The position numbers and the translations under genes are program-made. DNA of 64,000 nt, from contig SPDP01000005.1 in assembly GCA_009360345.1 (NCBI GenBank), positions 248,001 through 312,000 on the forward strand, in the 5' to 3' direction. Positions 2,061 through 63,423 of the stretch are shown here, piece after piece; the stretch's first letter is position 1; each line of letters starts with the position of its first letter. The DNA comes from Alcaligenaceae bacterium SAGV5 (lineage in GTDB: Bacteria; Pseudomonadota; Gammaproteobacteria; Burkholderiales; Burkholderiaceae_B). The notes beneath the pieces are model-generated. The model was not told the origin of the DNA. It did not search any database and was given only the letters and a program-made list of their open reading frames with translations.

Positions 2061-2915
2061 ATGGACACCCGCATTCCCGGGGGTGCGACGGAGACCGCAC
2101 CCCTGCCACTGCCTCGCGGCGCGTGCGATGCGCACGTGCACGTCGTCGGTCCCGCCAGCCGTTTTCCCTTCGTTGCCGGGCGCCACGCCGACGATGCGCC
2201 CAAGGAGGCATTGTTTGCGTTGCACCGGCGGCTGGGCATCGACCGTTGCGTCGTGGTGCAGTCGGCTTCGCACGGTTTCGACAATAGCGCCGTCGAGGAT
2301 GCCATCCGCGCGGGCGAGGGGCGTTACCTGGGCGTCGCCGCCGTGCCGCCCGACGTCGCCGATGGTGAGCTGCGAAGACTGGCGGACGCGGGGTTTCGTG
2401 GCGTGCGTTTCAACTTCATGTCGCATCTGGCCAGTCATGCCGATCCGCGTGCGCTGCCCGATTTCTCGAAACGCCTGGCGCCGCTTGGCATGCACCTGCA
2501 ATTGCATTTCGCGCCCGAGCGCATCCATGAGTTGGCGCCGCTGCTGCGGGGCTGCTCGGTGCAGGTCATGATCGACCATATGGGCCGGGTAGACGCGACG
2601 CAGGGGCCGACGCATGCCCACTTCGGCGCGTTATGCGAGTTGCTGCGGGACGAGCGCTTCTGGGTCAAGGTCTCGGGCGTCGACCGCGTCAGCCCGCCCG
2701 GCGGCTACGCCGACGGCGTGGCGCTGGCGCGGGGGCTGATGCGCGATTTTCCCGACCGCTGCGTCTGGGGCACGGACTGGCCCCACACCAATCATTCCCA
2801 CCGGCCCGAGGACGAGGCGCTGGTGGGATTGCTCGCTGGCATCGCACCGACCCGGGCCGCGCTCGAGAAGCTGTTGGTCGGTAATCCCATGAACTTCTAC
2901 AGGTTTGCAGCATGA
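2061..2915 (+). CDS. Amidohydrolase, LigI-like (2-pyrone-4,6-dicarboxylate hydrolase family)
   Basis: This 284-residue TIM-barrel hydrolase has the metal/active-site landmarks of the amidohydrolase_2/LigI group: CDAHVHVVGP near residue 22, MIDHMGR near 176 and the terminal GTDWPHTNH near 246 carrying the catalytic Asp. In LigI this fold hydrolyses a lactone, so a lactone or cyclic ester substrate is plausible; the real substrate is not known. It is the first gene of a six-gene operon and its stop overlaps the next start (ATGA at 2912-2915), which suggests translational coupling. The ATG at 2061 lies 115 bp from the divergent LysR gene. Confidence 0.85.
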   Translation: MDTRIPGGATETAPLPLPRGACDAHVHVVGPASRFPFVAGRHADDAPKEALFALHRRLGIDRCVVVQSASHGFDNSAVEDAIRAGEGRYLGVAAVPPDVADGELRRLADAGFRGVRFNFMSHLASHADPRALPDFSKRLAPLGMHLQLHFAPERIHELAPLLRGCSVQVMIDHMGRVDATQGPTHAHFGALCELLRDERFWVKVSGVDRVSPPGGYADGVALARGLMRDFPDRCVWGTDWPHTNHSHRPEDEALVGLLAGIAPTRAALEKLLVGNPMNFYRFAA

Positions 2916-3739
2916 GCTCCCCCTCCGTTTCCGCAGCATCCCAGGGCCGGCTTGCCGGCAAGGTCGTCTTCGTTTCCGGTGCCGGCTCGGTGGGCCCGGG
3001 TTGGGGCAACGGCCGCGCCATTGCCGTGCGTTTCGCAGAGGAAGGCGCGATCATCTTCGGCACCGACCGCGATCCCGCGCGCATGCAGGAAACCCAGCAG
3101 CGCATCGCCGACGCCGGCGGGCAGATGGTGGGCGTGGCCTGCGATGCGACGCAGTCCGCGTCGGTGGCCGAGGCCGTGGCGCAGTGCGTCGCGCGCTTCG
3201 GTCGTATCGACGTGCTGGTGAACAACGTCGGCGGGTCGGCCAAGGGCGGCCCGGTGGAGATGAGCGAAGAAGTGTGGGACGCGCAGATCGACCACAACCT
3301 CAAGAGCGTGTTCCTGGGCTGCAAGCACGTGCTGCCGCACATGGTGGCGCAGGGTGGCGGCGCCATCGTCAACATTGCGTCGACGTCCGGGCTGCGCTGG
3401 ACCGGATCGGCGCAAATCGCCTATGCCTCGACCAAGGCGGGGGTGATCCAGTTCTCGAAGGTGCTGGCCGTGCAGTACGCCCCGCAGGGTATCCGCGTCA
3501 ACAGCGTGGTGCCGGGCCAGCTGCATACGCCCATGGTCGAGGTGCGCCTGGCCGGCCAGCGCACCGGCGGCGACGTGGACGCGCTGCTCAGGCAGCGCCA
3601 GTCGCGCATTCCCCTGCCGTTCATGGGCGATGGCCGCGATACGGCCTACGCCGCGCTGTACCTTGCCAGCGACGAATCGCGGTTCGTCACCGGCACCGAG
3701 ATCGTGGTGGACGGAGGCATGTCCGCCCGCTGCGATTGA
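2912..3739 (+). CDS. Short-chain dehydrogenase/reductase
   Basis: A 275-residue classical-type SDR with a Rossmann fold. The cofactor loop is a variant glycine motif (SGAGSVGPGWGNGRA, residues about 20-36), followed by NNVGG near 105, a catalytic Ser in NIASTSG and a Tyr/Lys pair in AYASTKAG. The tail GTEIVVDGGMS is typical. It presumably oxidises or reduces a hydroxyl/keto group of the substrate handled by the LigI-like hydrolase just upstream, with which it overlaps by four bases. Substrate and cofactor preference cannot be read from the sequence. Confidence 0.92.
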   Translation: MSSPSVSAASQGRLAGKVVFVSGAGSVGPGWGNGRAIAVRFAEEGAIIFGTDRDPARMQETQQRIADAGGQMVGVACDATQSASVAEAVAQCVARFGRIDVLVNNVGGSAKGGPVEMSEEVWDAQIDHNLKSVFLGCKHVLPHMVAQGGGAIVNIASTSGLRWTGSAQIAYASTKAGVIQFSKVLAVQYAPQGIRVNSVVPGQLHTPMVEVRLAGQRTGGDVDALLRQRQSRIPLPFMGDGRDTAYAALYLASDESRFVTGTEIVVDGGMSARCD

Positions 3740-3780
3740 TCGTTCCAACGACGACGACATCTCCATCAGGAGGAGACACC

Positions 3781-4776
3781 ATGCACAACATCCCTATCAC
3801 GACGCGCTCGGCCTGGGCCGCCGGAATCGCCGCGGCCGCCCTGGCCGTGCCCGCCGCGCGGGCGCAGGACGCCGCCGCGAACTATCCGAACAAGCCCATC
3901 CGGATGATCGTGCCGTTCACCGCCGGCGGCCCCACCGACGCGCTGGCGCGTGCCATCGGCCAGAAACTGGGCGAACGCTGGAAACAGTCCGTGGTGGTCG
4001 AGAACCGCGCGGGCGCGGGCGGCAGCATAGGCGCGGAATTCGTTGCCAAGTCGCGCGCCGACGGCTACGTCCTGATGTTGACCACCGCTGGCGTGGTTAC
4101 CGTCAACCCGAGCCTGAGTCCGGTCAACTTCGACACGATGAAGGACTTCGCGCCGGTGGCGCTGGCTTCGACGATCGCCAGCCTGCTGGTGGTGCCGCCG
4201 TCGCTGAACGTTCATTCGACGAAAGAGCTGATCGCGCTGGCCAAATCCAGGCCGGGCGAACTGAACTACGGCAGCTCCGGCAACGGCAGCGCCAGCCACC
4301 TGGCCATGGCCCTGTTCGACAAGGCCGCCGACATCAAGGTCCAGCACGTGCCCTACAAGGGCGCCGCGCCGGCCGTGACGGACCTGTTGGGGGGCAACGT
4401 GCAGGTGATGCTGATCGGCCTGTCGACGGTGTTGCCCTACGTCAGCAGCGGCAAGCTGGTCGCGCTGGGCGTGTCGAGCCTCAAGCCTTCGCCGCTGGCG
4501 CCGGCGGTGCCGACCATCGCCGAGGCCCTGCCCGGCTTCGAGGCCAGCAACTGGCTCGGTATCTTCGCCCCGGCCGGGACGCCGCCCGCCATCGTGAACA
4601 AGCTCAATGCCGCGATCAACGACATCATGCAGCAGCCCGATACCTGGGGCACGATCTCGAAGGACGGCTTCGAGCCGGTACCGCCCAATACGCCGCAGGA
4701 GTTCGGCAAGTACGTGCAATCCGAGATCACCAAGTGGGCCAGGGTGGTCAAGGAAAGCGGCATGACCTCGAATTGA
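3781..4776 (+). CDS. Bug/TctC-family periplasmic solute-binding protein
   Basis: A 331-residue receptor with a signal peptide (hydrophobic AAGIAAAALAVPAARAQ, cleavage near ARAQ-D). The family blocks follow: YPNKPIRMIVPFTAGG, the ligand-loop Asp in GPTDALAR, VVVENRAGAGGSIG and ADGYV. Bug proteins bind carboxylates or other small anionic solutes in the periplasm. They either feed a tripartite tricarboxylate transporter (TctAB) or act as sensors. No membrane TctA/TctB gene is present in the window. A GGAGGAGA Shine-Dalgarno precedes the ATG. It is the third gene of the LigI/SDR operon, so its ligand is probably the compound these enzymes degrade. Confidence 0.95.
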   Translation: MHNIPITTRSAWAAGIAAAALAVPAARAQDAAANYPNKPIRMIVPFTAGGPTDALARAIGQKLGERWKQSVVVENRAGAGGSIGAEFVAKSRADGYVLMLTTAGVVTVNPSLSPVNFDTMKDFAPVALASTIASLLVVPPSLNVHSTKELIALAKSRPGELNYGSSGNGSASHLAMALFDKAADIKVQHVPYKGAAPAVTDLLGGNVQVMLIGLSTVLPYVSSGKLVALGVSSLKPSPLAPAVPTIAEALPGFEASNWLGIFAPAGTPPAIVNKLNAAINDIMQQPDTWGTISKDGFEPVPPNTPQEFGKYVQSEITKWARVVKESGMTSN

Positions 4777-4796
4777 CTCCATCCAGGAAGCGTTCC

Positions 4797-6185
4797 ATGA
4801 GCGAATCGACAGCTCGATTGATAGACCTGTGCCGCCACCGGCTGACCGCGCGCATCGATGCGCGCGCGCTGGGCGCGGCCACCCAATGCCTGGTCGACAG
4901 CCTGGGAGCCGCCTTCGCCGCCTACGGCGAGGCACCCATCGATGTCCTGCGCGAGCTCGACGTAGCGGGCGCGCCGGGCCCCAGCACTGTCATCGGCCAC
5001 GGCGATCGCGGCCGTCCGGCCGACGTGGCCCTGGTCAATGGCACGATGATCAGCCTGCAATTGTTCGACGACAACCAGGCGCAGATGCGCGGCCATCCGT
5101 CGGGGCCGCTGCTGCCCGCGGTATTGGCCCTGGCCGAACAGCAGGACCTGACGATTCGCGCCGCGCTCGAGGCCTTCGTGATCGGCTACGAGATGGAATG
5201 CCGCTTCGGCACGCTGCTCAACCCGTCGCACTACGAGGTCGGTTGGCACGCGACCGCGACCCAGGGAACGCTTGCCGCGGTGGTGGCGAGCAGCCTGATC
5301 CTGGGCCTGGACGACCAGGCCATGGCGCATGCGCTGGGGATCTCGGCATCGCTGGCCGGTGGGGTGCGGCGCAACTTCGGCACCATGACCATGTCGCTGC
5401 ACAGCGGCCTGGCCGCCAGCAACGGCGTGCGCGCCGCGCAGATGGCCAGCCGCGGGTTCACCGCCGATCCCCGCATATTCGACGGTCCCATGAATTTCGG
5501 CGCCGTGTTCTCGCTGGAGTGGACGGACAAGCTGCTCGAGGACAACCTCGACAAGTGGGGCGATCCGTTCATGATCGTGTCGCCCGGCCCGACCTTCAAG
5601 CTCTACCCTTGCGGCCGCCCGCCGCTGTTCGCGGTCGACTGCGTGGTGGACCTGCAGCGCCTGCACGGGGTGACGGCCGGGCAGATCAAGCGCATCCGCT
5701 GCGAGGCGAGCTATATGTACCCGCGCACGCTGATCCATTCGCGCCCCGGGAACGGCCTGCAAGGCAAGACCTCGCTGGAGTACTGCGTGGCGACCAGTTT
5801 CGTCGACGGCCGGCCCACGCTGGCCTCGTTCACCGACGAAGCGGTACGCCGGCCCGAGGTGCTGCGGCTGCTCGACATGATCGAGGTATGCGTGCCGCCC
5901 CACCTGTCGGAGGACGTGCCGGCCGTGCGCAAGGCGCCGTTCGAGCAGCCCGTCACGGTCGAGGTCGAGACGTTGGACGGACAGGTGTTTCGCGTGACGA
6001 CCCCCATCCACAAAGGATCTCCGGAAAATCCCGCGTCCGACGCCGACCTGAAGCAGAAATTCCTCGATTGCGCGGGTGCCCACCTGGGGGCCGCGCGCTC
6101 GGAGGCCGTACTGGACCACATTGGCCGCGCCGACGGCCGGGTCCGGGATCTGATGCGATCGATGATCGTCGACCTTGCACGGTAG
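4797..6185 (+). CDS. MmgE/PrpD family protein
   Basis: This 462-residue protein has the two-part layout of the MmgE/PrpD family: an all-helical N-terminal domain (about residues 1-260) and a C-terminal alpha/beta domain. Family-typical stretches include GYEMECRF, the GWHATATQGT segment and FKLYPCGRPP. Members include 2-methylcitrate dehydratase and cis-aconitate decarboxylase, so a dehydratase or decarboxylase acting on a di- or tricarboxylate is likely. The start follows the Bug stop by about 20 bp with an AGGAAG ribosome-binding site. Here it belongs to a non-propionate operon, so the name prpD is not used. Confidence 0.88.
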   Translation: MSESTARLIDLCRHRLTARIDARALGAATQCLVDSLGAAFAAYGEAPIDVLRELDVAGAPGPSTVIGHGDRGRPADVALVNGTMISLQLFDDNQAQMRGHPSGPLLPAVLALAEQQDLTIRAALEAFVIGYEMECRFGTLLNPSHYEVGWHATATQGTLAAVVASSLILGLDDQAMAHALGISASLAGGVRRNFGTMTMSLHSGLAASNGVRAAQMASRGFTADPRIFDGPMNFGAVFSLEWTDKLLEDNLDKWGDPFMIVSPGPTFKLYPCGRPPLFAVDCVVDLQRLHGVTAGQIKRIRCEASYMYPRTLIHSRPGNGLQGKTSLEYCVATSFVDGRPTLASFTDEAVRRPEVLRLLDMIEVCVPPHLSEDVPAVRKAPFEQPVTVEVETLDGQVFRVTTPIHKGSPENPASDADLKQKFLDCAGAHLGAARSEAVLDHIGRADGRVRDLMRSMIVDLAR

Positions 6186-54653: not shown

Positions 54654-55529
54654 ATGCGCGATTTTTCCCAAGACCATCAATGGATGTCCATCAACACCGC
54701 CACCGTGCGCAAGTCGCGCGGACAGGAAGTGCCGCTGCTGGAGATTCTCGACGCCTGCGCGCGGCTGGGTGTGCGGGCCATTTCCCCGTGGCGCGACCAG
54801 GTCGCGGCGGCGGGGCTGGAACAGGTGTCGCGCGTCGTGCGCAGCCATGGGCTGGCATTGTCTGGCTATTGCCGTGGCGGTATGTTCACCGCGTCGGATG
54901 ACGCCGGCTTGCTGCGGGCGCGGGATGACAACCGGCGAGCCTTGGACGAGGCATGCGAACTCAACGCCGCTTGCCTGGTACTGGTCGTAGGCGGACTGCC
55001 CGGAGGCTTGCAGGGCAAGGCCGAGTACCACGACATTGGTCGGGCGCGGGGGCAGGTGACCGAAGGCATCGCGCAATTGCTGGAGTATGCGCGCGAACGC
55101 AAGATGCCCATCGCTATTGAGCCGCTACATCCGATGTATGCGGCGGATCGGGCGTGTATCAATACGCTGGAACAGGCGCTGGATGTGTGCGATCTGCTGG
55201 ATTCTGCGCGTAGCGGGGATATCGGCGTGGCGGTGGATCTGTACCACGTTTGGTGGGATCCGAAGTTGCAGGCGCAGATCGAGCGGGCGGGGCAGAAAAG
55301 GCTATTGGCTTTTCACGTTTGCGACTGGCTTACGCCTACCACCGACCTGCTGAACGATCGGGGCATGATGGGGGATGGGGTAATCGAGATTCCCAAGGCG
55401 CGCGGCTGGGTCGAGGCGCAGGGGTTTTCGGGGTTTAGTGAAGTGGAGATATTTTCGTATCGGTGGTGGGAGCTTGATACCGATGCGATTTTGCGGACCT
55501 GCATCGAGCGGCACCGGTCGGTGGTGTAG
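54654..55529 (+). CDS. Sugar phosphate isomerase/epimerase-fold protein (AP endonuclease family 2)
   Basis: A 291-residue TIM barrel. IAIEPLHPMYAADRACINTL carries the metal-binding Glu; VAVDLYHVWWDP and HVCDWLTPT carry the Asp/His ligands and FSGFSEVEIF the final Glu, all typical of IolE/Hyi-type isomerases. The enzyme would isomerise, epimerise or dehydrate a sugar acid or inositol derivative. The final third is unusually G/T-rich compared with its neighbours. Last gene of the operon; the AT-richer island begins just after it. Confidence 0.9.
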   Translation: MRDFSQDHQWMSINTATVRKSRGQEVPLLEILDACARLGVRAISPWRDQVAAAGLEQVSRVVRSHGLALSGYCRGGMFTASDDAGLLRARDDNRRALDEACELNAACLVLVVGGLPGGLQGKAEYHDIGRARGQVTEGIAQLLEYARERKMPIAIEPLHPMYAADRACINTLEQALDVCDLLDSARSGDIGVAVDLYHVWWDPKLQAQIERAGQKRLLAFHVCDWLTPTTDLLNDRGMMGDGVIEIPKARGWVEAQGFSGFSEVEIFSYRWWELDTDAILRTCIERHRSVV

Positions 55530-55600
55530 AGGCGAGGGGAGGGCGGCGTCGGGGCTCTGATATGCTTGAGCGCGTCACGTGCTCAAGTTTCCGGAGTGCC

Positions 55601-56245
55601 GTGTTGCCCAAATCCCCCGCTGACAACGTCATTGCCCTGTACCGGGAACATGCCGCTGCATTCGAGAAAAATAGAAATCAAGCATTTATCGAACGTACTT
55701 GGCTGAACCAGTTTTTGGACCTGCTTCCCGGCTCTCGGCCGGATGTGCTGGATATCGGCTGTGGCAGTGGTGCGCCGATGGCGCGCTACCTTATTCAGAA
55801 CGGATGCGGGGTAACCGGGGTGGATACGTCGCTGCCATTGCTCGCGCGTGCGCGTGAGTCGTTTCCGGAGCAACGCTGGATTGCGGCGGATATGCGGCAG
55901 ATGCCGGTCGTAGGGCCGTTTCACGGTTTGCTGGCCTGGCATAGTTTTTTTCATCTATCTCCTGAAGATCAACGGCCTATGTTCGCCACTTTTCGGCGGC
56001 TGGCGGCGCCGGGTGCGGTTCTGATGTTTACGAGCGGTACTCGTCTGGGCGAGGTCATTTGTCAGTTCGAGGGTAAGCCTCTTTATCACGGCAGCCTGGA
56101 CACGAGTGAATATCAAGAATTGCTGAGTGCCAACGGTCTTGCTGTGGTCCGGCATGTTGAGGGCGACGCGACATGCGGGGGAGCGACGGTATGGTTGGCG
56201 AAGTGGATCGGGGAAGGTTGCTTTCGGGCGAGATTGGATACATGA
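55601..56245 (+). CDS. SAM-dependent methyltransferase
   Basis: A 214-residue class I methyltransferase with motif I VLDIGCGSGAPMARYLI, an acidic motif II in VTGVDTSLPLLARA, WIAADMRQMP and a C-terminal strand GGATVWLAKWI. The GTG at 55601 is preferred because GGAG lies five bases upstream; the ATG at 55562 would add 13 residues without conservation. Base composition is clearly more AT-rich than the operons to the left. It marks the left side of the island; substrate unknown. Confidence 0.85.
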   Translation: MLPKSPADNVIALYREHAAAFEKNRNQAFIERTWLNQFLDLLPGSRPDVLDIGCGSGAPMARYLIQNGCGVTGVDTSLPLLARARESFPEQRWIAADMRQMPVVGPFHGLLAWHSFFHLSPEDQRPMFATFRRLAAPGAVLMFTSGTRLGEVICQFEGKPLYHGSLDTSEYQELLSANGLAVVRHVEGDATCGGATVWLAKWIGEGCFRARLDT

Positions 56246-56437
56246 AAGGGACTGTTCTCGGTCAGAAGCAGACGGTAGCAACAGGCTGCTTCCTCACATT
56301 TCGTTTTGCTGCTTTTAAGTCGGAACACCCGACGTCTGGGGCAGAGGTTCCCACCGTAAGTGCTTGCCCATAAATGGTTAGCCGCTCTACTGCTCATCTG
56401 TTCTGGATAGATAAAAGCTAAAGGAATTTCTTGAAAA

Positions 56438-57412
56438 CTATCGAAGCTCGTCGACCTCGGCTATCAGGGCGTTGCTCCGGGCTTCGGTCGTCTTGAAGGC
56501 ATTGTCCAGGCGCTTGAAGAGCGCCTCCATTTCTTGGAATAGCTTACCTACTGCTTCAGTGGCAGGGAGAATTAACTGGCATTTGGCATGATATTCAGTC
56601 TCATATAGCCCCTTGGAGGCGCGTTGAGTGCAGGTGGTCTTCGCAATAGAAAGGCTTCTCTCCACCCTGTCATGGGCCGCTCTGGCATTCGATTCCGAAT
56701 TTTCTACCTTTACATTAGTTCCAATAAGCCCCTCAACGATTAGTTGGGTCATTGCGACGGAAACTTGCGACCGCGCTGCACCATCGCGGAGCGTCCGGGC
56801 GTGTGTGGCCATCTTCTCCTGTCGGATCGAAACGGCTTCGTAGAGTGCCGGCACCCTCGTCAGGACAGTTACAGTTTCGGTCCCTCTAATTTGAAACTCC
56901 TTGGCCTGTTTCAGCGCTGTGTCTATGTCGACCAACCCAGACTTGGCGAGCCTGTCTGCATTCTGCTGGGCCTTCGCCGCACGTGTGGCATTTGCCGCTT
57001 GCTTTGCGCGGGATGTTAATTCGGAGATGGTCGCCTGCTCATCCCGCTCGCTCGAAGAAGTTAGGTTGCCTTGCAGCCCATCACCGCCGGAGAACCGGAT
57101 GCCTGAGTTCGTCCGGGTCCCGGAAAATGCGATGACACCCCCTTGAATCCAGGGGCGCTCAATGCGACCTATTATTTGGTTCCCTTGTATCGCTCCGGAC
57201 ACCGGGGCATCGAAGTCTGCCTCCGTTCCGTTCTCAGTGACAACAACTTGTCGATACCGGCCAGCGACGCTACCTTCCTTCGTCTCGAGAAGTTGCAAGG
57301 TGATGTAGCCGTTGCCTCTGTAGTACCCCATGTATAGGCCGGACCAACTGGCAGCCGTTGCCGGAGCAACCGCACCAAGCAGCGCGAAGAGGGTGATGTG
57401 GGCGAGTGACAT
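56438..57412 (-). CDS. Island hypothetical protein with signal peptide and coiled coil
   Basis: A 324-residue protein. From the ATG at 57412 it has a signal peptide (HITLFALLGAVAPATAASWS) and a beta-rich part (LYMGYYRGNGYITLQLLETK to about residue 115). Residues about 115-324 form a long helical, probably coiled-coil region rich in Ala, Lys and Glu, with Cys near 270 and 290 (TTCTQRAS and HAKCQLIL). It resembles no family I know. It is probably periplasmic. Codon use is AT-richer than the core genome. The frame continues to 57652, but those residues precede the signal and are not supported. Confidence 0.65.
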   Translation of the reverse strand: MSLAHITLFALLGAVAPATAASWSGLYMGYYRGNGYITLQLLETKEGSVAGRYRQVVVTENGTEADFDAPVSGAIQGNQIIGRIERPWIQGGVIAFSGTRTNSGIRFSGGDGLQGNLTSSSERDEQATISELTSRAKQAANATRAAKAQQNADRLAKSGLVDIDTALKQAKEFQIRGTETVTVLTRVPALYEAVSIRQEKMATHARTLRDGAARSQVSVAMTQLIVEGLIGTNVKVENSESNARAAHDRVERSLSIAKTTCTQRASKGLYETEYHAKCQLILPATEAVGKLFQEMEALFKRLDNAFKTTEARSNALIAEVDELR

Positions 57413-57850
57413 TGAGTAAGCGAACTGATCATAGGGGGATTGTGTCCAATCGTATCCCATTCGAAGGGCGCTGGGCCATATAACGCTGATCAGTGCCTGA
57501 TGGCAGGAGAAGGACAGCGTACCAAGGCTATCAGAATAAATGAAAGAGTGGGCAAGAGATTCTATGGCTTTCGAACGCGCACCAGAGCGAGTAGCACGTA
57601 ACACCTTGAAGTTCGAGATGGATGAAAACGAAGTCGAGGCTTGACCCTTCACCGAGAAGCCGAATAGGAATCAGGGCGACCTAGCTAGACCCTGTCTTGG
57701 ACTGGTGCCATTTCGCTTGCCGTGGCTGTTGTGATGGCAGCGCTGGCGTTGACGGTTTCGCACTTGCCTTGTTGTTGCTTAAAGAGTGATTGGTGCCGGG
57801 GGGCATGGTAGGATTCCGCCGTCAGGCAGACAAAGGTAATGGAGAGAGCG
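57413..57850. other. 438-bp region between divergent island genes
   Basis: It contains the upstream part of the open frame of the signal-peptide protein (to 57652) and the promoters for the two divergent genes. No RNA gene, repeat or other reading frame of interest is seen. Confidence 0.5.
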
Positions 57851-58126
57851 ATGACGAAGGTGGAACAATTCCTGTGGTGCGTTCAGACCGCCTTCTTAAA
57901 CAATCAGTTGCTTGTCGCGCGTGGAATGGAAACCGTGGAGACTGCTGAGTTCGGTGGAATCAGGCACGTCCATTCAGTCACAGCTAGAGCGATCTGGGCT
58001 GCTTCCAAGATACCCAATTCACTCTCTGCGGATCAAGCATCTCGCGAGTTCTGTGATTTTGCTTTCGACAATCTGTGGAAAGAGGGGAAGTCCTGTCCGG
58101 ATTGGCTCGTAGGGATACCGAAATAG
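57851..58126 (+). CDS. Small hypothetical island protein
   Basis: A 91-residue protein starting MTKVEQFLWCVQTAFLNNQL and ending CPDWLVGIPK. GGAGAG lies just upstream of the ATG at 57851; an in-frame ATG at 57839 is an alternative. It is mainly helical with a few aromatic residues and three Cys. AT-rich codon use matches the island. The neighbourhood of a DRT system and an integrase remnant makes it a candidate accessory gene. No function can be assigned. Confidence 0.5.
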   Translation: MTKVEQFLWCVQTAFLNNQLLVARGMETVETAEFGGIRHVHSVTARAIWAASKIPNSLSADQASREFCDFAFDNLWKEGKSCPDWLVGIPK

Positions 58127-58127
58127 A

Positions 58128-58484
58128 ATGGTACGTTGTCTTCATATCCGCGAGGCTGGCGCTAGAGGGTGCGGTGACGCACCGCGTCGCGCTGCATGTG
58201 AAGTCCGAGGGCTGAAGGCGACAGCCGGGGACATTCTCTCTACGTCTGCTGACGCGGCAATATGCCCAGGTGGTACACCGTTGGATCATATAATTAGACT
58301 TGACGATGCCACGTACTGCACGCACATGATTCGTCGTACAAAAGCTTCACCTATCTACTGGCGAACGAAGAGCCTTCAGGCAGTGTAGTTGTTGCGCGGA
58401 CATACGAAGCTGAAAAGCACGATTCGCGATCTCGGCATTGAGGTCGACGATGCCCGCGAAGTGGCAGAGCAGACCGAAGCATGA
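58128..58484 (+). pseudogene. Decayed tyrosine recombinase (integrase) gene, C-terminal part
   Basis: One frame encodes THMIRRTKASPIYWRTKSLQ, then AV, a TAG stop (58386-58388), LLRGHTKLKSTIRDLGIEVD and finally DAREVAEQTEA before TGA at 58482-58484. This is the C-terminal catalytic end of a phage-type integrase; intact homologues read AVQLLLGHTKLESTVRYLGI. The TAG therefore replaces a CAG Gln codon, and the nucleophile Tyr (RYLG) has become Asp (RDLG). Upstream, LLTRQYAQVVHRWI appears in another frame, so at least one frameshift has occurred. Non-functional remnant of the element that probably brought in the island. Confidence 0.8.
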
Positions 58485-58637
58485 TGACTTGAAGGCCGAG
58501 AGCAGTCGCTTGCTTGTCACAAAAGGAGACAGTTGTCCCACGCTTCGGTAGGCAGACCAAATGGCGGCTATCCATCGGTGCACGGCCATTTTTGCGCGGA
58601 GAGCCGGTGACGCCTCCTTTCCTCGCTGAATAGGTCT
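58485..58637. other. Non-coding stretch between integrase remnant and ncRNA candidate
   Basis: No reading frame or repeat is recognised. It probably represents further decayed sequence of the integrated element. Confidence 0.4.
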
Positions 58638-58850
58638 GGAAAAAATCCCGGCTGCCTAGACGGCGATGCCGATGGATGTCGATGGCTTGAAAGACAACAC
58701 TGCGTAGGCAGTGTCAGACGAGATCGAACGAGTGGGGGAGACGGCCCGCTTCTACCGTCTAATTACCCAGCCCCCAATTGATATAGGGGAAGAGAGGGCG
58801 CTTGTGTGTGGGCTGCCAACAGCCATTAAGGGTAAAGCGGAGCGCCGAAC
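58638..58850 (-). ncRNA. Candidate template ncRNA of the DRT3 system
   Basis: Directly downstream of drt3b on the same strand lies about 210 nt without coding frame but with several hairpins. The minus-strand transcript has GGCTG-TTGG-CAGCC (58824-58811), immediately followed by CACACAC (58810-58804), then CCCC...GGGG arms, then ACACTGC-CTAC-GCAGTGT, and ends near a T-run (ATTTTTT at about 58647). Type 3 DRT systems contain an ncRNA, and from memory Drt3a copies an ACACAC template in it; that detail is not verified. The tract beside a hairpin fits such a template. Ends are approximate. Confidence 0.45.
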
Positions 58851-60923
58851 CTAATATACCTCGCGGCTGCGCTTCGCGTCTAGCTCTTTCCCGAGATCGA
58901 ATTTATCGCCCCAGGCGGTAAACCAGTGATCATTGGAGGACTGAACAGATAAGAGGCCCGCTGCATCTAGGCCAAAAATCTTTCCGATCTCGTCCTTGGT
59001 AGTGGTGCTGATGTAAGGGCAGACCACGAGATCGAACAGCATGATCAGCGTTTCGGCGTCATCGGGGCAGTGGGCCTTCATATATTCGAGCTTGGCGATG
59101 ATGTGTGCCTCCACGAAGGCCTTCAACTTTGCATAGCGAACTTTGTCTTTTATGTAAGACAGCAGAATCGTGATCGAAAAGTGGCTCATGAAGCCTGTCG
59201 GCCGAACATAATACTTCGTACCATCTTCCTCCTTGATCAGAAAATGACGGAGAAGAACGGAGACCGGCAACCAATACTCCCGGCCGATCTGCGATAGAGA
59301 AATAAGCAGGTAGAGGCTCTCGATCTCGCGGTAAACGCTCATCGTGTTCTTTTCGAGCTGCTGTATCACGTTGTCGTGAACGTACTTAAATAGTAGGTGT
59401 TTCAGCTCGTAGGGCATACCCTGCGCGTGCAGGAAGTCCACAGAAGTGGCAATCATCCGGCAGAGGCGGATGGTGTGATTGACCTTCGGGCTTGCCGAGT
59501 ACGCAAAAAAGGCAAACTCCATAATCGCGAGCAGGGCATTGGAGAGGCGCTTACGATCGCGATCTGATTTGTCGCTTGCTACATAGGATTTAAATAATTT
59601 TTCGATTCTATTCTCGGTTATGGCGAAGGTGTAATTCAACAGATCACCATAGGTGACGCCTGCCTCCTTGATGGCGGATTTGTACCGGATGATCAGACGG
59701 TTCGCGTTTATGGCACAGACTAGGTTCTGCTTAGGTGGCGTGGAGGGGGCGGCCGATAATTCCTCCTCACACATTGGATTGATCTCGTCAATCAGAAGCG
59801 TCGAGATACGCTCTTTGGCAACCGTAATTTCTGTGATGATCGGTTTTTGATAGTGCTTTATCTTCGCGGTGTTAATGGTTAATTTTTTGGATTTGAGAAT
59901 GTCCTGAAGCATCTCGAATATCTGTAAATGCGTGGATTCTGCATTGTAAAAAACGAAAAAATCATCCACGTATCGGAAAATTTCATAATCCACCTTGTGG
60001 ATGAGATTGTTTCTATTTGACAATTGCTTGATTAGTTCCGCATCGACCGACTGCAAAATGATCTCGGCGAAAATTCGAGAAAACTCCGGCCCAATGACGA
60101 TGCCGTTCGTTTCTTTGTGATTCAGGTTTTGCATAAGGGCATCAAAGCGCCCTCCGAAGGTAACCTTTGATTCGTCTAGACTAAATTTTGTCTGACCCTT
60201 GCCCAACACAGCCCAAGGCAGCGAGTGAGTGTAGATGCTATCGAAGCATTTGCTCACATCGAGCTGCACCATCGCATCGTATTTCTTCTCACTGCGGTGG
60301 TACTTGTGCGATTCAAAGAAGCGATGGATGTTTCGGTATTTTTTGTAGACGAAATAGGAACCGAGCTGCTCGTACTCCCGATCTTCTTCTTCTATCCCAG
60401 AAACGGCGTCTTTGCGCTCTTCATGGAGCTTGTCCTTGAAATAAGCGTAGCGTGACACTGATACTGGGTGACGTATCGAAAACTCGCTGACAGACGTGTG
60501 GTATATGATCAGCGCGCTGTGTGTTGCGTAGAAGCACGCCACGTCAACCTGATTACGGGGATGCACAACGCTTAGCGTGCGTCCGTCAATATTGTGAGCG
60601 ACACGGAAATTGAAAGGGATGGTCGCCATCTGGCATTTGCGTATGGGCACAGAGCGGCGCGTCTTCTGCTTGCCCCATTCAGTCACAACTTCAACTGCGA
60701 TTACGGCAGTGGGGTCGATTCCGAATAGTAGGCGCATCGTTTGGTCGAGATCGGTCGTCTCGCAAATCCAGCGTAATTTGCCCTTTTCGATTTCGATGCT
60801 ATTCTTTCTCAAGAAGCGATAATAGCCACGATTGGAAAATGTCGGAGGTACCTCGAAAGGCAGCATGTCCGTTAGCACGGACCTTTGCTTTCTGTGGGTG
60901 AGCGAGATGCGCCGCCTAGCCAT
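58851..60923 (-). CDS. drt3b: Reverse transcriptase Drt3b (UG8-type), defence-associated
   Basis: A 690-residue protein. The RT core has motif A in VQLDVSKCFDSIYTH (Asp222) and the catalytic FRYVDDFFVFYN (Asp320/Asp321), with GIVIGPEFSRIFAEIIL before it. About 360 C-terminal residues follow, helical and without a group II intron maturase or retron pattern. This size and its position behind a smaller RT match Drt3b of type 3 defence-associated RT systems. In those systems two RTs and an ncRNA block phage growth by making DNA. The start overlaps the drt3a end by 8 bp (translational coupling). AT-richer codon use suggests transfer. Confidence 0.85.
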   Translation of the reverse strand: MARRRISLTHRKQRSVLTDMLPFEVPPTFSNRGYYRFLRKNSIEIEKGKLRWICETTDLDQTMRLLFGIDPTAVIAVEVVTEWGKQKTRRSVPIRKCQMATIPFNFRVAHNIDGRTLSVVHPRNQVDVACFYATHSALIIYHTSVSEFSIRHPVSVSRYAYFKDKLHEERKDAVSGIEEEDREYEQLGSYFVYKKYRNIHRFFESHKYHRSEKKYDAMVQLDVSKCFDSIYTHSLPWAVLGKGQTKFSLDESKVTFGGRFDALMQNLNHKETNGIVIGPEFSRIFAEIILQSVDAELIKQLSNRNNLIHKVDYEIFRYVDDFFVFYNAESTHLQIFEMLQDILKSKKLTINTAKIKHYQKPIITEITVAKERISTLLIDEINPMCEEELSAAPSTPPKQNLVCAINANRLIIRYKSAIKEAGVTYGDLLNYTFAITENRIEKLFKSYVASDKSDRDRKRLSNALLAIMEFAFFAYSASPKVNHTIRLCRMIATSVDFLHAQGMPYELKHLLFKYVHDNVIQQLEKNTMSVYREIESLYLLISLSQIGREYWLPVSVLLRHFLIKEEDGTKYYVRPTGFMSHFSITILLSYIKDKVRYAKLKAFVEAHIIAKLEYMKAHCPDDAETLIMLFDLVVCPYISTTTKDEIGKIFGLDAAGLLSVQSSNDHWFTAWGDKFDLGKELDAKRSREVY

Positions 60924-62265
60924 GTTTCCAAGCCTCCACGATCATCTGCAGCTCTCTGGTGCCGAAGTTATGATATCGGCGTTGCTCAAATCCCGTGGTG
61001 AATTTGAGGTTTTTCAACTGCTTTTGCAGGCTAGGCCGCCTGAGTTCCGCGATTCGGGTCTTGAGCCGGTTATCGAGCAGTTTGAAGCTCGACAAGTCGG
61101 TCACGATCGAATTGTTGAAGTATATGCCGGTGACTGCACATGACTTGCTATTGGAAAGGCGGGTGTTGCCCGTCAGAAATTTTACCCGCCCGACTAGCTT
61201 TCTGAATGCCCCCTTCGAATTGACCGGATTTTCCCGCCAATAGTCCGCGAACGCGGCGTTCATTCGCGCACGATATTTCGCCACCTTCGCTGCACTCGGG
61301 CTGATTTCAAACCGTCCTGGTCTGAGGTGGAAACGATAACCTAGATACTCGAATTTCTTCGGCTGGGCGTCGGTCAGCTTGAATTCCGACGTTTTAACTG
61401 CGTTGTGCGTAAGTCCGTTGTTGCCGAAGATCGCGATGATCACGTCCTTAAACGAGCCAAGGTGTTTGCCCACTGGCGGTCGTGCAAACACGGCTACGAT
61501 ATCATCGACAAATCGGCAGTATAGAACTAAACCGGGGATCGCTCGAATTGCGTGGTCGACCGGTTTCAGATACAGCTCGGCGAGATATGCACTGATGCCA
61601 ACGCCCCGGGGAATGCCTGTCGGAGAGCCGGAGATCACGCCGTATGAGTCCAGCACCTGCTTAACGTATTTCTTAGAGGAGGGGCTCAATAACTGGTCGC
61701 GATCCAGTTTCTCGACCAAACGCTTCCGATCGATGCTCTCATAAAATGACGAGATATCGGTGCGGATCAACTCGAAAGGAAATTTGCTGCCTAGCATGTC
61801 GCGAAGTTGGCAGACCAAGTCATGACGGTTAGCCTGTTTGACGCCGTAGATGTGATGGATGTTACGCTGTAGCTGCTTGATGACGAAGAAGGTCTCAGGT
61901 TCCGCGTCGATGCAGAAAACTGACTTTCCCTTCGGTCCGATCTTTTGGGAAAGGCCGATCTTAAAGCTTGGCTTTAGAACCTTCTGGCTGATGTCATCCA
62001 TCAGGGCATCAATGGCGGATGACTTGGCTGCTTTCAAGGCAATTAGTTCAGTCTTCAACGCGAGCAGCTGTACTTCGAAATCATCAGCCTTCAGTGTGGT
62101 TTCGACTTTCCGTAAATCACGAATTTCCTGCACTTTGTTGCGTACAGCGAGCGTGAATGGCTCAAGCGTCGGGAAATGGCGGGTTGCCAAGTCGACACCT
62201 TTGCGGTTCTCAGCGTCATAGATACGACGAAAATTCTCCGTGGTGAACATCTGGTCAAGCATCAT
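60916..62265 (-). CDS. drt3a: Reverse transcriptase Drt3a (UG3-type), defence-associated
   Basis: A 449-residue RT. Motif A is IRTDISSFYESIDR (Asp170) and the catalytic site YCRFVDDIVAVF (Asp254/Asp255). SPTGIPRGVGISAYLAELYL is the motif before it, and KKFEYLGYRFHL follows the palm. The ATG at 62265 is chosen because the conserved N-terminus (LDQMFTTENFRRIYDAENRK) begins there. The frame stays open to a GTG at 62373, which would add 36 poorly conserved residues and lacks a ribosome-binding site. The small RT in front of a larger one fits the drt3a-drt3b order. Retron or intron RT roles are unlikely: no msr/msd or maturase domain is visible. Confidence 0.85.
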   Translation of the reverse strand: MMLDQMFTTENFRRIYDAENRKGVDLATRHFPTLEPFTLAVRNKVQEIRDLRKVETTLKADDFEVQLLALKTELIALKAAKSSAIDALMDDISQKVLKPSFKIGLSQKIGPKGKSVFCIDAEPETFFVIKQLQRNIHHIYGVKQANRHDLVCQLRDMLGSKFPFELIRTDISSFYESIDRKRLVEKLDRDQLLSPSSKKYVKQVLDSYGVISGSPTGIPRGVGISAYLAELYLKPVDHAIRAIPGLVLYCRFVDDIVAVFARPPVGKHLGSFKDVIIAIFGNNGLTHNAVKTSEFKLTDAQPKKFEYLGYRFHLRPGRFEISPSAAKVAKYRARMNAAFADYWRENPVNSKGAFRKLVGRVKFLTGNTRLSNSKSCAVTGIYFNNSIVTDLSSFKLLDNRLKTRIAELRRPSLQKQLKNLKFTTGFEQRRYHNFGTRELQMIVEAWKHG

Positions 62266-62919
62266 TTGGCGATTATTTCCATTTGATTCAGTTCGATATC
62301 TGGGCTCGATGCCGATGCAAGGTCGAGCTTGGTTGCGCTCTTGGAATGCAACGATCCGCTGATTTATTGACACGACTGGAACATTGACAACTTGACGGGA
62401 ATATTAACTCGGCAATTGCGATTCTGATAGTCAGAGATGGGAATTTTTGAAGTGGCCGGAATACTGCTGTGTGATAGCCACCTTCGGAGCTGCCGCCGTC
62501 CTGCGACTTGATGGCAAGAAAGCAGCCAAGAGTTAAAAGAAAATTAGCACGCGGTAGTAGACAGCGCGCCCGCCGTGCTCCCCCACGGCTCCGCTCCCTC
62601 GACGAGTAGTGAGCCTTGGTCTAGCACATAATCATGTACGGCTGTCGCCGCCGTATGATTCCAGTCAACTCATGAGCAGTGATGGGAAACCAGTTCCCTC
62701 ATTGGCCTTGATGTGTCGAAGCTGACCTTGGCGAATGGCATGAAACGGAAACCGGTTTTCTTTAAAAAGTAGAGAAAAAATCTGGCTAAAAATCTGAAAC
62801 TAACCAGCCGAATTTGCGAGTAACCATATAGATCTGCGCGTTGTTACGGGGTGCATCCTCTGTGACCGGAAAAATTTCCTGTCTACCATAGACTAACGAT
62901 TATCCGAATAGGACTAACC
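62266..62919. other. Long AT-rich region upstream of drt3a
   Basis: This 650-bp stretch separates drt3a from the MgtC-like gene. It contains no convincing gene. Visible are an inverted repeat ACATAATCATGT (62626-62637), a GC-rich patch around 62565-62600 and a very AT-rich stretch at 62755-62820. The drt3 promoter must lie here. The minus strand also has a short CACACA (62468-62473), a weaker template candidate than the one downstream of drt3b. Confidence 0.6.
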
Positions 62920-63423
62920 ATGGACGCCCCCCTATGGACCCAAATCTGGACCACCGCCTCCAACGAATTCTCCGACATCCCCGACATAGCCGAACTAACC
63001 CGCGTCTTCGTCCGCCTACTCGTCGCCATGACCCTAGGCGGCCTCCTAGGCTTGGAGCGTGAACTACGCGGCACCTCCGCCGGCCTGCGCACCCACATGC
63101 TGGTCGCCCTGGGCGCCGCGCTATTCGTTCTCGTCCCCCTGCAAGGCGGCATGGAAGTAGCCGACATGAGCCGAGTCCTGCAAGGCGTGATCGCTGGCAT
63201 AGGCTTCCTCGGCGCCGGCGCCATCCTCAAATCAAATGGCCGAGAGATCCACGGCCTGACCACGGCAGCCAGTATCTGGCTCACGGCGGCCATCGGTGTC
63301 GCGGCGGGCATGGGGCGGGAGATGACGGCCATTGTCAGCACGCTGTTCGCGCTGGTCATCCTGGCGCTGCTGCGCAAGTTCACGCACAACCGCGGCCTGC
63401 CGAAGCATGAGGACCATCAATAG
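62920..63423 (+). CDS. MgtC/SapB-family membrane protein
   Basis: A 167-residue membrane protein with four to five hydrophobic segments. The family pattern [20 protein letters not shown] followed by [17 protein letters not shown] and [13 protein letters not shown] is complete; members take part in Mg2+ homeostasis or in modulating the ATP synthase. It lacks the C-terminal ACT-like domain of virulence MgtC. The first third has an excess of CTA and C-ending codons unusual for the window. It marks the right border of the island. Confidence 0.92.

Follow-up and report, generated by a model that had tools for sequence, protein, structure and literature searches.

A complete DRT3 anti-phage system with a compact RNA is, judged from its sequence, very probably encoded by Alcaligenaceae bacterium SAGV5, where two adjacent reverse transcriptase (RT) genes, drt3a and drt3b, are followed by a structured non-coding RNA (ncRNA) on the minus strand of a stretch of 64,000 nucleotides (assembly GCA_009360345.1, contig SPDP01000005.1, positions 248,001 to 312,000), hereafter referred to as the window. 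The published attributes of DRT3 are a poly(dTdG)/poly(dCdA) product, a 6:6:6 complex, phage defence and dependence on RecBCD, and by analogy the locus of the window most likely works as published. The locus itself is a member of DRT3, and what is new here is the compact RNA class together with its protein correlates; no description of this class was found in the open-access literature searched by title and abstract, and the claim is restricted to that scope. By predicted RNA fold, DRT3 comprises at least two structural classes.

The original prediction described two adjacent minus-strand RTs of about 449 and 690 residues with an overlap of 8 bp, which is borne out by the coordinates of the open reading frames (ORFs), and assigned them to the UG3/UG8 pair of DRT3. 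Profile searches agree: Drt3a (UG3) reaches 399.8 bits with NCBIfam model NF041747 (cut-off 200) and Drt3b (UG8) 714.5 bits with NF041748 (cut-off 350), placing both neighbours well above the curated cut-offs, and PADLOC concurs with the DRT3 call (Drt3a model, 401.1 bits; UG17 is the next-best model after the Drt3a models). The best matches in the PDB are 26cz_A (1.4e-68) and 9z6y_H (4.3e-60) for Drt3b, using phmmer, and 9z6y_A (4.5e-22) for Drt3a. The catalytic residues were rightly considered intact; the Asp pairs D254/D255 and D320/D321 are located in an FVDD motif of Drt3a and a YVDD motif of Drt3b, respectively. Translation of Drt3a could also start at a GTG codon at position 62373, yielding a protein of 485 aa; however, a start around 62265 is favoured because the M/L-LDQ start motif is common to its relatives. 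Several other identities were rejected: the two RTs score 21.7 and 25.9 bits with the retron model retron_St85_RT (cut-off 235) and 49.1 and 60.6 bits with the group II intron RT/maturase model (cut-off 300), and the NCBIfam scores for AbiA and for Drt2, Drt4 and Drt5 are far under the cut-offs. Furthermore, an Rfam scan of the window gave no family at gathering score, neither a retron RNA nor a group II intron RNA.

Drt3b of E. coli EcoDRT3 is described in PMC13174585 as making poly(dCdA); E22 and R241 gate the bases, R71 stacks against the base and Y666 is the primer. Their equivalents in Drt3b of the window are E24, R283, R115 and Y690; the first three were placed by hand count in the phmmer alignment, allowing for a SUMO offset of 108 residues that was deduced from the lengths of 775 and 667, and the equivalence of Y690 was taken from the C-terminal alignment. 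Conservation was assessed in 108 Drt3b homologues whose ORFs span 600 aa or more (22 of the 122 parsed loci were dropped for being shorter or lacking an exact SR[IV]FAE motif, and eight of sufficient length were re-added to the resulting 100). The E24 column contains Glu in 102 and Asp in six homologues, and the E22D variant of EcoDRT3b is reported in PMC13174585 to be partly active. R283 and both catalytic Asp residues are present in all 108 homologues, R115 in 107 and Y690 in 107, with the Tyr of locus L144 not being C-terminal. The sole replacement of R115, by Asn, was observed in L040 from a Phaeobacter inhibens plasmid, which sits on a very long branch.

The AlphaFold2 model of Drt3b has a predicted local distance difference test score (pLDDT) of 85.7, and its fold matches that of DRT6 (9wy8_A; Z 21.9, 3.2 Å over 485 residues) and also those of DRT4, UG15 and AbiK. 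Because these matches extend over nearly the whole chain, the C-terminal half of the modelled Drt3b is a known class 1 helical-repeat arrangement and no new domain, contrary to the original prediction, in which the C-terminal 360 residues were regarded as unlike known domains. The class 1 UG RTs DRT4, DRT6, UG15 and AbiK share with Drt3b the combination of an RT domain and an alpha-helical repeat; AbiK and UG15 are single-gene systems. In the same way, DRT4 and DRT6 differ from DRT3 in being single-gene systems according to PMC13213688, and the C-terminus of EcoDRT3b is described as an alpha-Rep domain in PMC13174585. Drt3a was modelled with a pLDDT of 92.3, its nearest folds being G2L4, DRT9 and group II RTs. 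An ORF is located at the place of Drt3a, upstream of Drt3b, in 92 of the 100 loci with an exact SR[IV]FAE motif, and 91 of these 92 ORFs carry a [YF]xDD motif (the exception is L094); of the eight loci without such an ORF, seven have less than 1 kb of sequence before Drt3b and one, L045, has 2.1 kb.

The third component, an ncRNA, was only supposed in the original prediction, which named a lack of structured RNA at the locus as an argument against DRT3; such an RNA was found, with covariation over 54 homologues and an ACACAC template. ACACAC occurs within 450 nt downstream of the Drt3b stop codon in 106 of the 108 homologues (it is absent from L144 and L145), and no other template was found in the two main classes, with ACACAC in 106/106. 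ACACAC is present in all 100 of the loci that carry an exact SR[IV]FAE motif, compared to 8.5 in mononucleotide shuffles; GTGTGT is present in four. In the window, the template begins 41 nt past the stop codon and is unpaired both in the covariation model and in the minimum-energy fold of the single sequence, the overall fold of which is a different one.

A hand-written structure comprising the stems P1 to P4 and a pseudoknot was applied to 38 aligned sequences, which are the author's selection from 87 compact loci; 95.6% of the cells are paired and 22 of the 30 pairs show changes on both sides, and RNAalifold recovered P1 to P4 unaided. A model containing only the nested stems (R1) was searched in 77 selected loci, 58 compact and 19 long, and gave 54 matches at E<=1, all of them compact and all adjoining the end of Drt3b, with 24 of them being sequences of the model's own alignment; none of the 19 long-class loci was matched. 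The window copy, which is among the model's own sequences, scores 128 bits. For the full structure of 30 pairs including the pseudoknot, 92.3% of the cells are paired in the 54 sequences, 24 of which were used in model building, and covariation is 0.717 versus 0.232 for shuffled and at most 0.193 for slid controls. The pseudoknot, which connects the segment following the 5' strand of P1 with the loop of P4, was tested on the 54-sequence alignment fitted to the nested stems, without being used in the fit: its six pairs are 87.1% paired, their covariation is 0.550, whereas shuffled controls give 0.267 and slid ones no more than 0.199, and changes on both sides number 60 versus 17.3 in shuffled alignments.

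Two classes of DRT3 can be distinguished by the distance of the template from the start of the drt3b stop codon (compact, less than 100 nt; long, at least 101 nt). Among 106 loci with a long Drt3b ORF and a template, 85 are laid out compactly and 21 in the longer, Eco-like manner, a ratio biased toward the class of the window by keeping the best 80 of 347 genome relatives. In the 100 SR[IV]FAE loci, this distance ranges from 24 to 261 nt with a gap, which separates 83 compact from 17 long loci. A Drt3b tree built with a quick method under LG+G4 from 78 of these 100 sequences (61 compact, 17 long; 22 taken as near-copies were left out), in which L039 and L040 sit on long branches, requires only one change of RNA type, on a branch with an SH-aLRT support of 100 and a length of 1.02. 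Neither of the solved Drt3b sequences found is compact, because the loci matching them, L127 (1340 bits over 599 residues with 26cz) and L134 (1429 bits with 9z6y), both belong to the long class. The compact class is present in Pseudomonadota, Bacteroidota, Verrucomicrobiota and Acidobacteriota. It was also observed in E. coli, on plasmid CP083496.1 (L034, positions 2159-5700), where drt3b is annotated as two pieces, and among 5,426 complete E. coli genomes there are nine with a DRT3 that is 92-100% identical to L034 at the DNA level, in all cases on the chromosome.

The classes differ in both RNA and protein. Energy folds of the 21 long-class RNAs, inspected by eye, mostly consist of a closing stem, several inner hairpins and an unpaired template beside the 3' strand of the closing stem; the folds of L037, L126 and L135 fit this layout poorly. 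The compact RNA has one hairpin inside P1, and P3, P4 and the pseudoknot are added outside. According to these models, closing stem, boundary hairpin and template appear to be common to both classes. Residues 34-77 of Drt3a, which the model places in a pair of long helices (32-53 and 60-97), are found in most of 76 compact sequences and missing from most of 15 long ones, and the same applies to 36 of the 52 residues of Drt3b 43-94 (83 and 17 sequences). We infer that these protein segments replace RNA stem-loops of the long class.

EcoDRT3 (PMC13174585; Drt3b chain 26cz_A) resembles the locus of the window in the adjacency of Drt3a and Drt3b, the ACACAC RNA downstream of Drt3b and the four matched Drt3b residues. 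However, the template of L127, which matches 26cz_A, lies 128 nt past the stop codon, and the window differs in its RNA, which is short inside P1 and extended after P1, and in the additional N-terminal helical stretch of Drt3a and extra Drt3b segments. The RNA model of PMC13174585 was built starting from the subgroup of EcoDRT3 itself, and the word pseudoknot is absent from the main text of that paper. The second E. coli system, 9z6y/9z6z (Drt3b of 650 aa, near-identical in L134), likewise shares both enzymes, the template and the gates with the window, but belongs to the long-RNA class, with the L134 template located 124 nt past the stop codon; Drt3b of L134 and of the window are 27% identical in the best segment. 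DRT10 (UG17) and telomerase RNA are similar in that repeats are synthesised on a short template immediately 3' of a stable hairpin; unlike DRT3, DRT10 is described in PMC12632851 as combining an RT with a SLATT partner and as having templates that vary, and it has no Drt3b.

By homology to EcoDRT3, whose Drt3a copies ACACAC into poly(dTdG) (PMC13174585), the following mechanism can be proposed for the locus of the window. Drt3a would read ACACAC in the downstream RNA to produce poly(dTdG), while Drt3b, primed on Y690, would need no nucleic-acid template to make poly(dCdA), as dA would be admitted by E24 and dC selected by R283. The two strands would anneal to repeat double-stranded DNA, which would normally be degraded by RecBCD of the host; a phage that blocks RecBCD would thus cause repeat DNA to accumulate and cell growth to stop. 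Lambda Gam or a loss of RecBCD is reported in PMC13174585 to render DRT3 toxic. In the compact RNA, the presumed boundary hairpin P2 and the short closing stem P1 frame the template, and the pseudoknot ties the 5' segment to the P4 loop; this arrangement may hold the template in position for Drt3a, a task that the additional stem-loops would have in the long RNAs.

The operon is part of a variable insert of 6.6 kb. The original prediction of a genomic island with an AT-rich composition stands, the latter only relative to the flanks, which have a G+C content of 65-66% compared to 51.6% for the insert. One of the flanks (window 54654-56245 and 62920-63423) has a sugar isomerase-like gene and a methyltransferase gene, and the other an mgtC-like gene. 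Both flanks occur together in five of ten congeners and are missing or not close to each other in the other five. Three congeners have different cargo at the same site: SIR2 and PADLOC PDC-S25 (6.7 kb), Hachiman HamA/HamB and PDC-M11A (8.9 kb), and DrmA, DrmB and a DrmC-like protein (DISARM-like) with GmrSD (13.6 kb). Two are nearly empty, with 58 bp (the methyltransferase gene being shortened) and 172 bp (no methyltransferase match) between the flanks. The insertion site is thus a defence hotspot. A dead integrase had also been proposed next to the operon; this holds for a short remnant of about 270 bp, whose best match, with around 73% identity over 269 bp, is Achromobacter plasmid DNA annotated as tyrosine recombinase; none of the ORFs tested there matches Pfam or NCBIfam. 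Positions 58352-58513 of the remnant are 84.7% identical to part of the Hachiman insert. A tRNA integration site was rejected, as no tRNA is present in the window. The insert further contains a 95-aa ORF (57839-58126, plus strand) without significant match in Pfam, NCBIfam or PADLOC, which may be a real small gene.

A number of observations weigh against a complete DRT3 system that has the proposed RNA and works as published. Residues 688-690 of Drt3b have a pLDDT below 50 and the position of Y690 is therefore not placed by the model. R1 missed four of the 58 compact loci (L035, L109, L111 and L117), and four of its 54 matches are weak, with E values from 0.035 to 0.49 (L033, L115, L119 and L083). 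The pseudoknot was first spotted by eye in the same loci and was hence not predicted blindly; the outermost of its pairs does not form in 20 of the 54 sequences, and in one of five measures, the number of pairs with changes on both sides (five), it is equalled by 36 of 500 shuffles. The energy fold of the single window RNA is a different nested structure (z -0.82), with 38 of 200 shuffles being at least as good, so that the proposed RNA structure relies on covariation. The insert also holds an unexplained gene, a 404-aa ORF (56438-57652, minus strand) with a possible signal-like stretch noticed by eye, for which no match was found in Pfam (E<=0.1) or PADLOC (E<=0.01) and only a chance-level one in NCBIfam (10.4 bits, cut-off 300). 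Finally, the host of the window encodes recC (1205.9 bits), and on this evidence the RecBCD guard can apply there but not in all compact-class hosts, because RecC exceeds its cut-off in six of 26 selected hosts, among which genome completeness is given for that of the window alone, and AddA does so in 12 of those without RecC; the remaining eight match the AddA model below the cut-off. The AddA model also gives weak matches in 12 of 14 control genomes (above the cut-off in one), so that only matches above the cut-off were counted.

The strongest competitor concerns the RNA: P3 and P4 might be a mere transcription terminator with an incidental pseudoknot, the functional RNA consisting of P1, P2 and the template. 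At least four T residues are present in the 9 nt past P4 in 31 of the 54 aligned homologues, and P4 may for this reason also terminate transcription in some hosts; none of the 12 terminator-like sites (7.5 expected) corresponds to P4. However, the window copy lacks a T-run past P4, and covariation of the P4 loop with the segment after P1 above both kinds of control makes a terminator alone unlikely. Less probable still is a locus that descends from DRT3 but is now defective or silent, with an operon that decays next to a dead integrase and has lost its defence function. This reading would be consistent with the integrase remnant adjoining the operon and with promoter-like sites not exceeding expectation (six versus 5.1), a count that is uninformative. 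Against decay, both ORFs are full length with their key residues, the window copy has all six pseudoknot and all five P1 pairs intact, and its Drt3b is 92% identical to that of Burkholderia sp. WAC0059. It seems highly improbable that compact-class Drt3b makes a product other than poly(dCdA): although the segments within residues 43-94 are located, in sequence, between the gates E24 and R115 and most long-class relatives lack them, E24, R115 and R283 are all conserved and ACACAC remains the RNA template, so that a complementary dCdA strand is expected. A complete DRT3 system with a compact, pseudoknotted RNA is preferred.

A third, divergent DRT3-like group was observed on phage and provirus contigs, on Lactobacillaceae plasmids, in which the two RT genes are divergent, and in Erysipelothrix phage SE-1. 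The E and R gates are present in four of its five distinct loci, and the patterns used did not find them in L182. L182 ends with Y and L180 with YYE, and L144, L145 and L183 with neither. The gap between the RT genes contains TGTGT in 5/5 and GTGTGT in three; TGTGT in all five arose in 0/2000 resamples, and some shared 5-mer arises in 49% of resamples. An RNA encoded on the Drt3b strand would imply that the two RTs have exchanged strand roles in this group; the other strand reads ACACA. Viral scans for relatives of L144 and L145 returned only these two loci.

Table 1. Features of the DRT3 locus in the window and positions of the third-group loci.
Feature	Position	Strand	Basis or remark
Drt3a, UG3 group RT, 449 aa; FVDD with D254/D255	60916..62265	-	NF041747, PADLOC, AlphaFold2
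Drt3b, UG8 group RT, 690 aa	58851..60923	-	NF041748, phmmer, residue counts, AlphaFold2
Drt3b parts: RT domain, alpha-helical repeat C-terminal half, Tyr690; gates E24, R115, R283; YVDD	residues 318-321 (YVDD)
Putative DRT3 ncRNA, compact class (P1, P2, template, P3, P4, pseudoknot)	58739..58846	-	ends inferred from structure, not transcripts
P1 5' strand (partner 58797-58801)	58842..58846	-	covariation
Pseudoknot 5' strand UCCGCU (partner P4 loop, 58745-58750)	58836..58841	-	covariation
P2 hairpin, presumed template boundary element	58811..58824	-	role suggested by DRT10 SL5
ACACAC template of Drt3a, directly 3' of P2, 5' of P1 3' strand	58804..58809	-	invariant in 38-sequence alignments
P1 3' strand	58797..58801	-	covariation
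P3 hairpin, 3 + 5 pairs	58766..58794	-	covariation
P4 hairpin; loop contains pseudoknot 3' strand AGCGGG (58745-58750)	58739..58760	-	covariation
Variable insert (defence hotspot) with DRT3 operon	56265..62882	.	congener comparison, G+C 51.6%
Degraded tyrosine recombinase/integrase remnant	58245..58513	-	DNA identity
Third-group locus L144	2429-6010
Third-group locus L145	2449-5815
Third-group loci L180/L181	2051-5504
Third-group locus L182	1856-5363
Third-group locus L183	1960-5504

DRT3 is a recent example of DNA synthesis that uses an RNA template and a protein 'template' simultaneously, and the solved Drt3b sequences found sit on one side of the Drt3b tree only. It is tempting to speculate, if tentatively, that DRT3 consists of two deeply separate machines, the compact one having a telomerase-like minimal core of boundary hairpin, template and pseudoknot, a helical hairpin of Drt3a replacing the lost RNA stem-loops, and a particle and a trigger (AddAB in place of RecBCD in many hosts) unlike those of EcoDRT3, with the product still being poly(GT/AC). 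The occurrence of compact DRT3 in hosts with AddA in which RecC was not detected would mean that the RecBCD-guard model needs broadening or does not describe the sole trigger. With around 110 nt, the compact RNA offers a smaller target for reconstitution, mutations can be used to test its covarying pseudoknot directly, and the presence of compact DRT3 in E. coli genomes makes laboratory tests practical.

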